64,000 nucleotides of DNA, taken from Thermomicrobiales bacterium. GTDB taxonomy: Bacteria; Chloroflexota; Chloroflexia; Thermomicrobiales; CADCWN01. The translations under genes were made by a program, and so were the position numbers. The notes under the pieces were generated by a model. That model saw only the letters and a program-made list of their open reading frames with translations, had not been told where the DNA came from and made no database searches. The stretch is taken from positions 262,206 through 326,205 of the forward strand of contig JAUJMV010000001.1 in the NCBI GenBank assembly GCA_030446685.1, written 5' to 3'. Below, in pieces: positions 32,323-39,996 of the stretch (position 1 is the stretch's first letter; each line of letters opens with the position of its first letter).

Positions 32323-33234
32323 TCATGCGTCGCGCGCGTGCTCCGCGAGGACGTCGGCGATGACGCGCCTGGCTCTTCCCGCCTCCGCGGGGTCGGTGTG
32401 CCGGTGTCCGGCGAAGGTGAGGAGGGCCTTCCACAGCGCCCAGCCGCGCCCGCGCGCCCAGGTCGCGCCGTCCGCCGGGAGCGCGGCGCGGAACACCTCC
32501 CGGCCCTCCCCCGCCAGGAGCGTCCAGGCGATCGTCAGGTCGCAGGCGGGATCGCCCACGCCGCAACACCCGAAGTCGATCACGGCGCTCAACCGGCCCC
32601 CCCTGACCAGGAGGTTCCCGGCGGCGACGTCGCCGTGGAACCAGACCGGCGGGCCGTGCCAGGTGGCCGCGAGGGCCGCTTCCCACAGCGCGGTCGCGGC
32701 CCCGGCGTCGATCTCGTCGGCCAGGGCGGCGATGGTGCGCCGGGTTTCGGCGTCATAGGTCTCCAGCGGCCCGCCGCGGAAGAAGCTGTGCGGGCCGGGC
32801 GGCGGTCCGCCGGCCGGGTCGACGCGCTGTAGGGCGGCGAGGAAGCCGGCGAGCGCGGCGGCGAACTCGCGCGGATCGGCGATGCGCTCGACCGTCGCGA
32901 CGTCGCCCTCGAGCCACCGGTAGACGGACCAGGGGAAGGGATAGCCCTCCGCGGGGGTCCCCTTCGCCAGGGGGACGGGGATGGGGAGCGGGAGGCGCGG
33001 CGCGAGGAGCGGCAGCCAGCGGTGTTCCTTCTCCACCTGGGGGGTGTAGCCCTCGGCGCTGGGCAAGCGCACGCTCAACCCCTCGCCGAGCCGGAAGGTC
33101 CGGTTGTCCCACCCGCTCACCGCCACCGGCCTGACCGGGAGGTCGGCCCACCTCGGGAATTGGGCGGCGACCAGCCGGCGCACGAGAGCCGCGCTCACGT
33201 CCACCCTGTCGGCGTGCCGATCCTGCGCTGACAC
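32323..33234 (-). CDS. Aminoglycoside phosphotransferase (APH) family kinase
   Basis: 303 residues, full length for the family. N-lobe: VSGWDNRTFRLGEGLSVRLP. Hinge and C-lobe: FPWSVYRWLEGD, then the catalytic Brenner motif VWFHGDVAAGNLLV (HGDxxxxN) and the metal-binding SAVIDFGCCGVGDPACDL (D-F-G and GDPACD). This set is typical of the phosphotransferase group that includes streptomycin, homoserine and many small-molecule kinases, so the real substrate may not be an antibiotic. Start ATG 33234 has GAAAGGAGGGC upstream. It sits alone between secD and an ABC exporter. Confidence 0.85.
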   Translation of the reverse strand: MSAQDRHADRVDVSAALVRRLVAAQFPRWADLPVRPVAVSGWDNRTFRLGEGLSVRLPSAEGYTPQVEKEHRWLPLLAPRLPLPIPVPLAKGTPAEGYPFPWSVYRWLEGDVATVERIADPREFAAALAGFLAALQRVDPAGGPPPGPHSFFRGGPLETYDAETRRTIAALADEIDAGAATALWEAALAATWHGPPVWFHGDVAAGNLLVRGGRLSAVIDFGCCGVGDPACDLTIAWTLLAGEGREVFRAALPADGATWARGRGWALWKALLTFAGHRHTDPAEAGRARRVIADVLAEHARDA

Positions 33235-33395
33235 GATGCCCTCCTTTCGCGAGTCACCGGACGGCCCGCCGCGTCATGCGCCGCGCTCGTCATCGGTACT
33301 CGTCATCGGTAGAGGAAGTGGTTTTCGCGAGCCGCGGTGATCGGCCCACGAGGGCGGGCAGCCTCGGTCGCGCCAGGAGCCCCCCGGTTCGCGTG

Positions 33396-35195
33396 TTATG
33401 CCAGGGCAACGTGATCGTCCGCGTCATACCACAGGGACCGCATCTCCGCGCAACTTTCCAGTAAGAAGGCGAGCGTGCCCTGGGCCTCGACCCGCCCCTC
33501 CCTCAGGACGATGATGTGGTCGGCGCGACCCAGCGCGGCGCGGCGGTGCGAGACGGCCAGGCAGGTCACCCCCCCGCCGGCGAAGAGCCGCCCCCACAGC
33601 AGCTCCTCTGTCTCGACATCCAGCGCGCTGGACAGGTCGTCGATCACCAGCAACTCGGACTCGCGCACCAGCATGCGCGCCGCCGCCGCGCGCTGCACCT
33701 GGCCCCCGGAGAGCTTGACGCCGCGGGTGCCCACCGGCGTCGCCAACCCCGCCTCCAGCGCCTCCACATCGCGCTCCAGGGCGGCGCCCCGCACGGCGGC
33801 GGCCAGGGCCACGGGGTCGTCGGGGAGCCCCAGGAGGATGTTCTGCTTGAGCGTCTCGCTGAAGAGGCGCGGCGCCTGCGCCGTATACGCCGCGCGGGGC
33901 GGCACGAAGAAGGAGGCCGGGTCCTCCACGATCTGCCCGTTCCAGCGGATCTCCCCGGCCTCGCGGGGCAGCAAGCCCAGCAAGGTCCGCAGGAGGGTGG
34001 TCTTGCCCGCGCCGACGCGCCCCGTCACCACCGTCAGCGTGCCGCGCGGCAGGCGCAGATCCACCGCGACGATGCCGCGCCTCCGGTCCGCCTCGGCGGG
34101 GAGGCCGGGGTGGCGGTAGGTCAGCCCGCGCGCCTCCACGACGGCGAGCCGGTCGTTCGCGCCGCGCGTCGGCGCCGGCACGGCGGGCAGCGGGTCGCGC
34201 AGGTGCAGCGGGGCCGACGCGACGATCGCGGCGGGCGGGGCGCCGCCCAGCAGGGTGCCCATGCGCGCGAACGCGACCCCGGCCTGCTGGTAGTGGGCCA
34301 GGTACCGGCCGAGCCCGTCGGTGAAATCGGCGATGAAGCCCAGGTAGGAGACGAACAGGACGAAGTCGCCCACCGTCAGGCTGCCGTCGCGCAGGAGGCC
34401 GGCGGCCAGCAGCATGATCAGGCCGGTGCCCACGCTGACCGTGTTGGCCGTGAGTGCTTCCAGCGCCTGTGTCGCCAGGCGATCGGCCAGCACGGAGGAG
34501 CGGCGCCGCTCGTTCAGCCGCCGCAAGTGGGCCACGGTCCGCGCCTCGGCGCCCGCGGCCTGCACCGTCTGCACCGCCGTCAGGATATCGCCGATCGCCC
34601 CGGTGACCTGGCTGGTCGCCTGGCTGCTGGCCGCGCGGAAGCGGGTCAGCGCGGCGCTGGCCCGCCGCGCCACCGCCACCACGATCAGCAGGGGCAGGAT
34701 GACGACCAGGGCCATGCGGACGTTGACGGACAGGAGGACCGCGAATGCCACCAGCGCGAAGAGGCCCTGGCTGACGATCTCGTCGGTCCAGTCCACGCTA
34801 TCCTCGGCCTGATAGGCGTCGTCGCGAAAGCGGCTGATCGTCTCGCCGATCGAGTAGGGCAGGGCGGCGGCGCCCGGTCGTTCCAGGACGTGACGCAGCA
34901 GGTTGCGGCGCACGAGCCCGCTCATCGTGAACCGGAGGACGATCTCGACAGAGCCGGCGATCAGCCACAGGGCCATCTGGCCGGCGGCGACCACTACCAG
35001 CAGCGCGAGCAGCCCCGTCGTCCCCACCGGCAGGCGCGCCGCCCCGGTGAGGGTGTCGAAGAAGGCGCGGGCGATCAGCCCCGGCAGCAGCGATGACAGG
35101 TTCATCGCGCTCCACAGGGCCGCGTGGAGCAGGTAGAGCCCCGGCGCGTAGCGGCCCATCTTCGCCACGTAGCGCCAGACCGGGAGCGGCTTCAC
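33396..35195 (-). CDS. ABC exporter half-transporter, second subunit
   Basis: 600 residues. Start is the GTG at 35195 ([19 protein letters not shown]), which overlaps the upstream TGA as GTGA and has AAGGAGG 8 bases away. Membrane domain with six helices (residues 1-310; [15 protein letters not shown] is the intracellular coupling loop). Nucleotide domain: [19 protein letters not shown] (Walker A), [13 protein letters not shown] (Q-loop region), [18 protein letters not shown] (signature), [20 protein letters not shown] (Walker B with Asp-Asp instead of Asp-Glu) and [11 protein letters not shown] (H-switch). The Walker B Glu is replaced by Asp, so this half carries a degenerate or weak site. 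Forms a heterodimer with the upstream gene product. Confidence 0.9.
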
Positions 35196-36943
35196 CGGGG
35201 GACCTCCTTCGCGGCGACCCGCAGCAACGCGGCGAAGCGCGAGCCGGGGTCGGCGGCGAGGGCGAGCCGCGGCCCGTGCTCGCGCACCCGCCCGTCCTCC
35301 AGGACCAGGATGTCGTCGGCGAAGGCGATCGTGGCCAGCCGGTGCGCCACGATGATGCCGGTGCGGCCGTCGAGCAGCCGCCCCAGCGCCGCCTGCACCA
35401 GCCGCTCGGTGGCCGGGTCGAGGCGCGAGGATGCCTCGTCCAGGATCACCACGTCGGGGTCGCGCAGGAAGATGCGGGCGCAGGCCAGCACCTGCGCCTG
35501 CCCGGCGGAGAGCCCGACGCCACCGGCTCCCAGCGGGGTGTCCAGCCCGCGCGGCAACCCTCGCAACCAATCGGCGAGGCCCAGCCCCTCCAGCACGGCG
35601 CCGATCCGCTCATCCGGCACGCTGTTGTCGAAGAGGGTCAGGTTGTCGCGCACGCTGGCGTCGAAGAGATGGACCTCCTGCGTGACCAGGCCGATCCGCG
35701 CGCGCACCGCCGCGAGACGCACCGACCGCAGATCCACGCCCCCCAGGCGCACCGTGCCCGCCAGCGGATCGTAGAAGCGCGGGAGGAGGCGCGTCAGCGT
35801 CGTCTTGCCGCTGCCGGTGCGCCCCACCACCCCCAGCACCCGGCCCGGCGCCACGCGCACGTTGATGTCGCGCAGGACCGGGGTGTCGGCCGCGTAGCCG
35901 AACGAGACGCCCTCCAGTTCCACCGCCAGCGGCCCCGGCGGCAGCGCGGCGCCGGGGCCATCGGCCAGGCGCGGGGCCGTGCCCAGGAGCGCCTCGACGC
36001 GGCCCATGCTGGCGTCCGCCTGCTGCAGATCCTGCACTTCGTTGCGGATCTGCTCGGTCGGCTGACGCAGCATCGCGGTGTACTGGAAGATCAGGTAGAC
36101 GGCGCCGATCGTCAGCGTGCCCGCCCTGAACAGCATGGCGCTCAGGGCGAAGGCGACGACCGTGCCGAGCGCGAACAGCCCCTGGCTGGAGGCGACCAGG
36201 GCGTAGCCCTTCATCTGCGCCCTGCGCGTCACCGCCAGCCACGACCGCATGGTCTCCGCGCAGCGGCGGATCACGAACGCCCCCGCCCCGCTGGACCGGA
36301 TATCCTCCAGGCCGGCCAGGTGCTCGCCCAGGAAACCGTAGAAGTCGGCGCTGGCCTGGCGCTCCGCGGCCCAGGAGGGGGTGGCGGCGGCGCGGATGCG
36401 CAGCATGACGATCACGGCCAGCGCGACGAAGAGGCCCAGCCCCAGGCCGACCCGCCAGTCCACGCCGAACAGGAGCCCGATCATCCCCAAGACGAGGAGG
36501 CCGTTGCCGACCACCAGGACCACGAACCGCGAGAAGAAGCGGGCCAGGGTGGCCACGTCGCCGTCCACCCGCTCGATCAGTTCGCCCGGCGTGTGGGCCG
36601 TGTGGAACGAGGCGTCCAGCCGCAGCAGGTGCGCGATCAGGTCCGCGCGCAGCGCGTTCGTGGCCGCCCAGCTCACCTGCTCGGCCACGTAGGTCTCGGC
36701 GACCGCGCCCCCCTGCCTCGCCAGGGCCAGGCCCATGGTCAGCAGCGCCAGGACGATCAGATCGCGCAGGGCCGCGCCGCTGGTGGCCCGGTCGATGAAC
36801 CGGCTCACCACCAGCGGGGCGACCACCTGCACGCCGATGGTGCCGCACAAGATCACCGCCAGCAGGCCCATCCGCGACCGCTCGGGCCGCAGGTAGCGGG
36901 CGAGCAACCGCCAGTAGCGGTTCAGGGATTGCCAAGGATGCAT
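35192..36943 (-). CDS. ABC exporter half-transporter, first subunit
   Basis: 583 residues from ATG 36943. Six membrane helices (residues 25-300) with the coupling loop [20 protein letters not shown]. Nucleotide domain: [19 protein letters not shown] (Walker A), [17 protein letters not shown] (Q-loop), [19 protein letters not shown] (signature with LSAGQ replacing LSGGQ), [20 protein letters not shown] (Walker B with the catalytic Glu) and [14 protein letters not shown] (H-loop). Together with the GTGA-coupled second gene it forms a heterodimeric exporter with one canonical and one degenerate ATP site. It is next to a ribosomal-protection gene, which may suggest drug export, but the cargo is not predictable. 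Confidence 0.9.
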
Positions 36944-37132: not shown

Positions 37133-39103
37133 CTAGACCCGCCGCACGACGTGCAGCAGGTATTCCTTGCGGTTGAGCGGATTGTGGTCCGACCGCGGTC
37201 GGGTCGGGATCGCGCCGCGGACCGGTCGGTAGCAGGCGAAGGCGCTTTCCAGCACGCCCTCACCGCGAGACAGCTCCGGCAGCCGTTGCTGCAGCTCATG
37301 CACCCGCGCCGCCGGGATCTCACCCTCCAGCAGGTACGCCGAACCCCGCCCTTCCTGCCTTTGCGGGACGGCGCCCAGCCGCGCCAGCGCGGGAGCTGTT
37401 GCCCCGAACGTGTCCGCGGGAATCTCGAGGTGGAAGCGGTGGATCGGCTCGCACACCACGGTGCCGGCCTGCTTCAGCGCGCTCATCAGCACGAGCGGCG
37501 TCAGCTTGCGGAAGTCGCCGGCGGTGCTCGCCGGCGACACATAGCCGGAATGCGTCATGGTGACCCTGCAGTCGATCACCTGCCACCCGTACAGGCCCTG
37601 GCGCAGCGTCTCCCGCACCGTATCCTCGATTGCCCCGCGGAATTCCTCGACGGACTTGTAGACATAGAGCGGCATCGACCGGACATCGACCTCCAGCCGG
37701 AATGCCACGCCGCCGTCGATCGCCGCCGGCTCGACGCGCAGCCCGACGGTCGCCAGGAACGGGTTGGGCGCCTCGCCGAGCGTCTCGACGGCGGCCCCGA
37801 CGCCGACCGGCCGCTCGATGCAGATCGTCGTTGTCTCGCGGAAGGTGACATCGATGTCGAAGTCGTCCGCCAGTGTCGCCCCGATGACCTCTTTCTGCAC
37901 CTCGCCGTAGAGCGAGACGGCGATCTCCTGCCCCCGATCGTCCTGCCGCAGGTTGATCAGCGGGTCCTGCTCGGCGAGCTGGGCGAGCGCGACGTGCAGC
38001 GCCCCTCTGTCCTCGGGGCGCCGGGGCACGACGATCGTCTCCAGGGTCGGCGGGGCGAAGTGGTGGCGCGCCGCGGTCGCGCTCGACCGGCCGATCGCGT
38101 CGCCGATCCGGATGGCGTCGAGCCCCCAGAGCTTGCCGATCTGCCCCGCGGCGACCGCCGCACCCCGGGCGGCCGAGCCGCGGTCGAAGACGCCGATTGC
38201 GGTGACCTTCCCCTCGTTGTCCCGGCCGAACGCCAGCCGATCGCGCGCCCGCACCGTCCCGGAGAACATGCGGACGTAGGCGATCTTCTCCCCGCCCGGA
38301 CCCCGCTCGACCTTGAACACGGCGCCAGCAACCGGGCCATCGACATCGCCGCCGGCCGCCGGCAGCAACTCCGCGATGCCGGCGATCAGCGCGTCCACCC
38401 CTGCGCCGGTGATCGCCGAGCCGAAGAAGACCGGATGCACCAGCGCCCGCCCCGTCTGCACCGCCAGCGCGCGGCGGAGTCGGCCATACGAGACGACGGT
38501 CTCGTCGTTGACGTACGCGGCGAGCAGCGCATCGTCGTGGTCGGCGAGGAGATCGACCAGCCGGGCCGTAAACTGGGCATCGGCGGCGCCGTACGGCGCG
38601 TACCGCGCCCCGCGGGTGCCCAGCCCGCAGGCCGCGCCCAGCGGGATGATCGCCGGCGTCAGGCCCTCGGCGATGCCCCGCAGCACGCGCCCGGCGTGCG
38701 CGCCGCCGCGGTCGATTTTGTTGATGAAGATGAGGGTGGGGATGCGCAGCCGCTGTAGCGCCCGCATCAGCACGCGGGTCTGTGGCTGCACGCCCTCCAC
38801 GGCGGAGATGACCAGCACCGCGCCGTCGAGGACGCCCAGCACCCGCTCCACCTCGGCGATGAAGTCCGGGTGGCCGGGCGTGTCGATCAGGTTGACTGTG
38901 ACATCGGCGATGACGAAGGAGACGACGGCGGACTTGATCGTGATGCCGCGTTGCCGTTCCAGCGCCAGGGAATCGGTCTGGGTGTTGCCGTCATCGACGC
39001 TGCCGATCGCGTCGATGACACCGGCGGCGTAGAGCAGCCGCTCGGTCAGGCTCGTCTTACCGGCGTCGACATGCGCCAAAATCCCCAAGTTCAACGTGCG
39101 CAT
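37133..39103 (-). CDS. Ribosomal protection GTPase, Tet(M)/OtrA type
   Basis: 656 residues, the usual length of this family and shorter than EF-G. G-domain motifs: LGILAHVDAGKTSLTERLL (G1), RGITIKSAV (G2), NLIDTPGHPDFIAEVER (G3) and LIFINKIDRGG (G4). The phrase GVLDGAVLVISAVEGVQPQT followed by RALQRLRIPTLIFINKIDRG is characteristic of tetracycline-resistance ribosomal protection proteins of the OtrA/Tet branch, which displace tetracycline from the 30S subunit. Domains II-V follow, with a C-terminus ending NPLNRKEYLLHVVRRV as in domain IV/V tails. A leader ORF overlaps its start. Base composition matches its surroundings, so recent acquisition is not indicated. Confidence 0.9.
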   Translation of the reverse strand: MRTLNLGILAHVDAGKTSLTERLLYAAGVIDAIGSVDDGNTQTDSLALERQRGITIKSAVVSFVIADVTVNLIDTPGHPDFIAEVERVLGVLDGAVLVISAVEGVQPQTRVLMRALQRLRIPTLIFINKIDRGGAHAGRVLRGIAEGLTPAIIPLGAACGLGTRGARYAPYGAADAQFTARLVDLLADHDDALLAAYVNDETVVSYGRLRRALAVQTGRALVHPVFFGSAITGAGVDALIAGIAELLPAAGGDVDGPVAGAVFKVERGPGGEKIAYVRMFSGTVRARDRLAFGRDNEGKVTAIGVFDRGSAARGAAVAAGQIGKLWGLDAIRIGDAIGRSSATAARHHFAPPTLETIVVPRRPEDRGALHVALAQLAEQDPLINLRQDDRGQEIAVSLYGEVQKEVIGATLADDFDIDVTFRETTTICIERPVGVGAAVETLGEAPNPFLATVGLRVEPAAIDGGVAFRLEVDVRSMPLYVYKSVEEFRGAIEDTVRETLRQGLYGWQVIDCRVTMTHSGYVSPASTAGDFRKLTPLVLMSALKQAGTVVCEPIHRFHLEIPADTFGATAPALARLGAVPQRQEGRGSAYLLEGEIPAARVHELQQRLPELSRGEGVLESAFACYRPVRGAIPTRPRSDHNPLNRKEYLLHVVRRV

Positions 39104-39167
39104 TGAACGTCATGTCCTCCATGTAGGTAGCAACTCGCTGCTGGGTGGACATGAACGTTGCGCGCAT
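39057..39167 (-). CDS. Leader peptide overlapping the ribosomal protection gene
   Basis: 36 codons starting MRATFMSTQQRVATYMEDMT at 39167, with a strong AAGGAG 8 bases upstream; stop at 39057. It overlaps the first 47 bases of the GTPase gene in a different frame. The GTPase start itself has only a poor Shine-Dalgarno of its own (inside the leader, GGAGGACATGACG). The arrangement suggests that translation of the leader controls access to the GTPase start, as known for tet(M)-type and erm-type leaders. Function is inferred from position. Confidence 0.55.
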   Translation of the reverse strand: MRATFMSTQQRVATYMEDMTFNAHVELGDFGACRRR

Positions 39168-39996
39168 TTCCGTCTCCTTGGTCGATCGGCGGTCGTCGGG
39201 GGTGTCGTGGTCGCTCGACTGCTGGCGGGAGTGTAGCAGATGGCCGACCGGGCGGGCAACCGAGGAGTTGGGCGCCCCAGCCGGCGCCGGCGAGCGTCGA
39301 AGCTGCCGCGCGCGATCCCCGCTTGGATCGGCCGGATCGACCGCCGCCAGGCCGAGGGTCAACTCGACGGGCGGCCACCAGGCTGCGACGCCGCCCTGTC
39401 CAACGCACGCCGCCCCGTCGGACGCGCCTTCGGGCGCCTCGAGCCATGGCGCGGCAGCGCCACCCGCCGCCACCAACACGCCCCCATCCACCTCGCCGCC
39501 ATCGTCCCCACCCACCCCATCCGCATCTCGCAGTCATGCCCCAGTCGGCCAGGGGACATCGCGATCGGCCCGGACCCTCGCGATGCCGCCGTCCCCTACC
39601 CGCCTGCCCGCCTCTCCCCCTCCGCCCCCGCGGCACCGCCCGCCCCCGCCGCCGGGTCCGATCGGTATCCGGGCGCGCACGCCCCGCCCCCCGCGCGGGC
39701 GCGACCAGCCGCGAAACCTGCTTTTCGCGAAACGAACCACCTCCAACCGGCGTGATTGTGGCGTCCCATCAAGGAAAACGACCCCGGCGACGGGTCAGGA
39801 GGATGACCAAAATGACCCCCAAATAATCCCATTCCTCCCCCCTTTCGCGCCGCCCGCCCGGCGGCGGCGGCGCACACGGCGCCGCCGCGGTCCCGTCCGG
39901 TTGCGGCGCCAGGGCGCTTCCCTGTAGCATTGCCACGATACCGCCGGCCAATCCACGACGCCGCGGCCGGCGGGAGTGGGGAACGGGAGGCACTGC
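39168..39996. other. 829-bp intergenic region, no gene supported
   Basis: All long frames here are low-complexity Arg/Pro/Ala readings of GC-rich DNA on both strands without ribosome binding sites. It lies between divergently transcribed genes and must hold the promoters of the GTPase (minus) and gltX (plus). A short low-GC patch (CCAAAATGACCCCCAAATAA) occurs near 39805-39830. Confidence 0.5.

Follow-up and report, generated by a model that had tools for sequence, protein, structure and literature searches.

Does a short ORF that runs out of frame across the start of a ribosomal protection-type GTPase gene control the translation of that gene? The question arises in a 64,000 nt stretch of a Thermomicrobiales bacterium genome (hereafter the window), for which a sequence-only reading had described a 36-codon ORF with a strong Shine-Dalgarno (SD) sequence that overlaps the GTPase start by 47 bases in another frame, and had proposed that ribosomes slowed on this leader under tetracycline-type stress could change access to the GTPase start. 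We confirmed the ORF, its SD and the out-of-frame overlap at this position (Table 1), and compared the locus with its homologues.

The GTPase and its overlapping leader ORF

By homology, the GTPase encoded in the window is a ribosomal protection protein of the TetM/TetO/Otr(A) type. Its match to TetO spans residues 1-652 (E = 1.8e-111), and that to TetM is likewise full-length; among the matches listed, the best stretches of EF-G mostly ended near residue 160. Pfam found EF-G domains in the protein, and a domain IV loop of the SPxST..DFR type is present (sgyvspastagdfr in the GTPase, aligned with lyyspvstpadfr in TetO). The curated NCBIfam cut-offs were reached neither for Otr(A) (759.5 bits; cut-off 900) nor for tet_protect (718.9 bits; cut-off 775). 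On sequence grounds, the GTPase is related to ribosomal protection proteins and falls outside the named resistance families; it is not a housekeeping EF-G, and we make no claim of resistance for it. In several Streptomyces, at G061:C5:292059-294101 and similar loci, the GTPase match fell into two separate pieces within one open frame (e.g. residues 1-301 and 291-656), which suggests an insertion in the middle of the protein.

Table 1. Features of the leader-GTPase region, in window coordinates
Feature	Coordinates	Strand	Details
GTPase, TetM/TetO/Otr(A)-type ribosomal protection protein	37133..39103	minus	656 aa; assigned by homology
Leader ORF	39057..39167 (39167..39057)	minus	36 codons plus TAA; +1 frame relative to GTPase
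Leader stop TAA	39057..39059	minus	formed from P-loop codons Gly15 (GGT) and Lys16 (AAG) of GTPase
Outer helix, 3′ side	39097..39102	minus	GTPase start region; TGCGCA; MFE folds
Inner hairpin, 3′ arm	39107..39117	minus	leader nt 51-61; overlaps GTPase SD
GTPase SD, GGAGG	39116..39120	minus	partly within hairpin
Inner hairpin, 5′ arm	39147..39158	minus	leader nt 10-21, codons 4-7; ACGTTCATGTCC
Outer helix, 5′ side	39161..39166	minus	leader start region, nt 2-7; TGCGCG; MFE folds
Leader SD, AAGGAG	39174..39179	minus	6 nt before leader ATG; SD also ahead of leader ATG in homologues
Extended -10-like element	39230..39238	minus	TGCTACACT; similar in L002, L035, L039 and L046
-35-like element, TTGCCC	39254..39259	minus	18 nt before -10-like element

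The leader ORF of the window reads MRATFMSTQQRVATYMEDMTFNAHVELGDFGACRRR up to its stop codon, and the overlap with the GTPase coding sequence is exactly 47 bases. Because the leader frame is open upstream as far as a GTG at 39515 in this GC-rich DNA, the length of the ORF is in itself no evidence. The leader stands above chance because it is conserved.

Conservation of the leader start, frame and stop

Homologues were drawn from 61 related genomes, a species-genome collection and 101 Streptomyces genomes, the collection contributing Actinomycetota, Chloroflexota, Phenylobacterium, an uncultured Caulobacteraceae and Devosia. The resulting 159 distinct homologous loci, mainly from Actinomycetota and Chloroflexota with a few from Alphaproteobacteria, share descent, and the counts given here are between related sequences. 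A candidate leader start was found in 157 of the 159 loci, at least one of them (L044) spurious, and the automatic placement rule of this survey misplaced the leader of L006. The sequence-only reading had staked its proposal on the conservation of the leader in homologous loci, and the leader is indeed conserved, with 150/157 loci in the phase seen in the window. Nearly all homologues are preceded by an SD, by an ATG mostly followed by CG (ATGCG), and by a hairpin whose end falls just short of the GTPase start.

The distance from the leader start to the GTPase reference codon ranges from 58 to 103 nt across the loci, and the phase is nonetheless mostly kept; some of the longer distances reflect N-terminal extensions of the GTPase, for which multiples of three would be expected in any case. 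With the start of the GTPase held fixed, 16 spacing changes were inferred on the tree, and 12 of these keep the phase (binomial p = 8e-4 under a one-in-three null). In the loop part of the leader, codon-position entropies revealed third positions that are less variable than first and second positions, with no coding-type signal. Selection on the sequence of the loop peptide finds no support in these entropies, and the loop peptide is probably under none. Judged from the alignments, what is conserved in the leader is the start, the frame and the stop, not the loop peptide.

The leaders of five actinomycete loci (L073, L082, L091, L112 and L168) are frame-shifted, and three of these five end at +37, where GTA is read as TAG. 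L073 has the only leader that ends upstream of the GTPase start. L044, L106 and L184 carry GTPase homologues without a recognisable leader, none of which has GGT at the P-loop glycine; they offer natural controls for regulation.

A predicted hairpin over the GTPase SD

Three features of the locus were absent from the sequence-only reading: a hairpin that hides the GTPase SD, a leader stop within the P-loop codons, and a spread over several phyla. The window belongs to stem class 1, which comprises 60 loci with a spacing of 64. In the 60 sequences of this class, 86.5% of the cells of the inner stem were paired, both sides had changed at 5 of 11 pairs, and 23 cells had changed on both sides compared with 8.8 in shuffles; two of the five shuffle-tested measures were unexceptional. 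As RNAalifold returned no consensus structure for class 1, the structure of this class rests on the counts for the named structure and on the folding z-scores of single sequences.

The Chloroflexota relatives (class 2) have a stem of different sequence, e.g. CGTTGAAGA with TCTTCAACG. Changes on both sides occurred at 11 pairs and in 33 cells in this class, compared with 12.1 cells in shuffles, and the covariation score was 0.338 versus 0.187 in shuffles. RNAalifold recovered this stem unprompted, together with the outer helix between the leader start and the GTPase start, which is strong in class 2 (81.9% of cells paired) and weak in class 1 (70.8%). Class 3 consists of Streptomyces Otr(A)-like paralogues of ~50% identity, in which a GAGGA SD is paired with leader codons in 12/12 folds, fully in 10, and is followed 11 nt downstream by the GTPase start in 10. 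As far as alignment and folding reveal, three versions of the stem that are unrelated in sequence share one layout, and the two that were tested both carry compensatory changes.

The folding z-score of the hairpin averaged -3.1 over 135 loci, 98% of which were below -1; the three loci with a spacing of 70 had no excess folding in this test. When a ribosome was modelled on the leader start codon by masking the RNA up to 17 nt beyond the P-site, the mean P(unpaired) of the GTPase SD region, averaged over loci, rose from 0.20 in the free RNA to 0.45. For leader nt 49-56 of the window sequence, it rose from 0.13 to 0.61. Two marks of a translational attenuator are present at this locus: a leader ORF with its own SD, and a hairpin that hides the SD of the gene with leader codons in its other arm.

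Leader stops within the P-loop codons of the GTPase

The leader terminates with TAA at +47 in 125 loci and with TGA at +38 in 15, which places 140/157 stops at two sites in the P-loop codons. The TAA at +47 requires GGT as the P-loop glycine codon of the GTPase. Gly15 is GGT in 85% of rows, compared with at most 32% at the other 37 conserved Gly sites and with a share of 10.7% among all Gly codons of these GTPase genes; in the EF-G-like paralogues, GGT occupies the P-loop glycine site in 7 of 23. The distance of the stop inside the GTPase gene appears to be under selection by way of GGT. When the last base of codon 12 is T, giving an earlier leader stop, GGT was found in 1/15 cases, compared with 125/135 otherwise (p = 1.5e-12 from the raw table). 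Counted as independent events on the tree, three support the exclusivity of the two stop types and two are uninformative; the direction holds but is not significant. An exclusive GTT-or-GGT leader stop was not retained, as the raw association is strong but the independent tree events are too few.

The neighboring codons are also biased. Val12 is GTA or GTC and almost never GTG; GTA makes up 41% here, and no other Val site exceeds 9%. Ala14 is GCC or GCA and hardly ever GCG, with the lowest GCG share among all conserved Ala sites. The choices at Val12 and Ala14 preserve arginine in the last leader codons. It is conceivable, though doubtful, that an Arg-Arg-Arg-stop leader end is selected via these synonymous P-loop codons and that slow termination there queues ribosomes over the GTPase start, shutting it; the switch would then sense the flow of ribosomes through the overlapping ORF as well as a stall at its start. 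The proportion of A/T third positions is 0.28 in GTPase codons 2-16 versus 0.11 later, and a general preference for weak structure near the GTPase start may contribute to the codon choice.

A candidate translational attenuator

Because the SD is modelled to become more accessible, and because stalling by tetracycline and attenuation have published precedents, we take the leader and its hairpin to be, quite probably, a cis-acting translational attenuator of the GTPase. The sequence itself provides the leader with a conserved phase and stop, the hairpin with compensatory changes in its stem, and the computed rise in accessibility of the SD; we infer that the leader is translated, that drugs stall its ribosomes and that the GTPase rises as a result. 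In the mRNA, leader codons 4-7 would form the 5′ arm of the hairpin and the GTPase SD would lie in the 3′ arm, with the outer helix pairing the two start regions. In the absence of drug, a leader ribosome would cross the hairpin and the out-of-frame GTPase start and end 38-47 nt inside the GTPase gene; the hairpin would re-form behind it, and few initiations would occur on the GTPase. With a ribosome held at the leader start or the first codons by tetracycline or another inhibitor, the 5′ arm would lie under the ribosome's leading edge (about +16 to +18) and the GTPase SD would be released. A second ribosome would then initiate the protection protein on the freed SD.

Of the earlier proposal, the control of a ribosomal protection GTPase by the leader is well supported by sequence, with a conserved leader and a full-length TetM/TetO homologue. 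Its drug-responsive part is an extrapolation from the geometry and the ToiL precedent, with which a response to tetracycline-type stress fits (PMC12121999). If true, this switch, with its overlapping leader conserved in several phyla, would act as a widespread sensor of the tetracycline class and would explain the choice of rare codons within a catalytic motif. Otr(A)/TetM-like protection genes are frequent among actinomycetes of the soil and among environmental bacteria. In the open-access PMC papers searched, their control beyond transcription by WblC is little described, and we found no description of this leader switch.

Alternative readings of the overlap

In coupled gene pairs, the first stop usually lies within a few bases of the next start. 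Plain translational coupling, in which passing leader ribosomes melt the hairpin and GTPase initiation follows at a constant ratio without drug sensing, would account for a conserved leader whose path crosses the hairpin. It is unlikely here, as the stop lies well inside the next gene in 140/157 loci, at a distance apparently selected through GGT, and only the L073 leader ends upstream of the GTPase start. The leader might otherwise act as a decoy uORF, drawing in ribosomes that then pass over the GTPase start, so that output would follow initiation efficiency with no hairpin switch. The out-of-frame overrun and the conserved stop agree with such a decoy, but the conservation of a hairpin on the GTPase SD, with three versions of its stem, is left unexplained, and we consider a decoy improbable.

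In tet(M) and tet(W), as in the window locus, a ribosomal protection gene is preceded by a leader ORF (PMC5418344, PMC3350403), and tet(M) differs in that transcription attenuation has been reported for it (PMC5418344). A leader ribosome controlling a terminator in this manner is very unlikely in the window, where no terminator-like site occurs in 38900-39400, and thus none between leader and gene, and where the hairpin lacks a U-run and leads directly into the start of the GTPase. A chance ORF in GC-rich DNA, for which the frame open far upstream could speak, is refuted because the leader is conserved (phase, SD, stop and hairpin are kept across phyla), and a misread N-terminal extension of the GTPase conflicts with a leader that is out of frame with it, so that we give next to no weight to either.

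Relation to known attenuators

The leader of tetQ is very short and does not overlap its gene, and ermC relies on a set of alternative stems together with a peptide stall site specific to the drug. By description, the window leader differs from that of tetQ in its length of about 36 codons, its out-of-frame overlap with the gene and its stop in P-loop codons; unlike ermC, the element consists of one hairpin, with one arm close to the leader start and a loop peptide that varies. Translational attenuation was reported for tetQ of Bacteroides (Wang et al., 2005, via the review PMC5418344), and tetQ resembles our candidate element as a ribosomal protection gene whose translation is controlled by a leader together with an RNA structure masking the ribosome-binding site. 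ermC-type systems likewise combine a leader ORF with a sequestered SD that is relieved by a stalled ribosome (reviewed in PMC5418344).

In the E. coli toiL-topAI system, tetracycline stalls ribosomes at the start codon of the toiL uORF with the 3′ edge at +16 to +18, inducing topAI (PMC12121999). The toiL uORF pairs with the downstream ribosome-binding site and a start-stalled ribosome opens it (PMC12121999); the spacing between start codon and 5′ arm suits the window leader too. The operon under toiL control encodes a toxin-antitoxin system, and drugs of several classes are sensed along the length of the uORF (PMC12121999), whereas the target in the window is a gene of the tetracycline-protection type whose start is overrun by the leader. 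The putative overlapping-leader attenuator is kin to the tetQ, ermC and toiL systems, and its layout of overlap and P-loop stop appears, from the open-access papers searched, to be new.

Genome searches, promoter and neighborhood

A covariance model of the leader, whose E-values are rough, was searched in 247 Actinomycetota genomes and matched 10 of them at E ≤ 0.01, the query Streptomyces included. All ten matches sit just before a ribosomal protection GTPase, and the training set had included a few of the loci. The genome of the window has one strong copy of the leader. An occurrence of the element before other genes was considered for a match in the same genome (E = 0.96) and one in Devosia (E = 0.03); no GTPase start follows either, and both are probably due to chance. 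A mobile or repeated element was also rejected, as the 201-base region is present once in the genome. Searched against Rfam, neither the window leader nor the leader regions of four homologous loci gave a match at the gathering score.

Upstream of the leader, a TTG...TACACT-like layout recurs in many homologues. The version in the window, TTGCCC-18-TACACT, is a probable promoter of the leader-GTPase mRNA as judged from its sequence; a consensus promoter scan did not call this pair of -35-like and -10-like elements. A WblC-like motif precedes the -35-like element in 26 of 123 actinomycete loci (13/62 and 13/61), where shuffles expect about 0.1, and in 0 of 22 Chloroflexota or window-relative loci. 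The WblC/WhiB7-like AAAWY lies 3 nt before the -35-like element in actinomycete loci such as L129, L132, L037 and L062. Transcription of tetM in S. coelicolor is activated by WblC (PMC7157823), and in actinomycetes, transcriptional and translational layers may act together.

Downstream of the GTPase on the same strand (32323..36943, minus), the window carries ABC exporter genes (33396..35570 and 35192..36943) and a gene for an APH-family phosphotransferase (32323..33234), which possibly form a resistance cluster.
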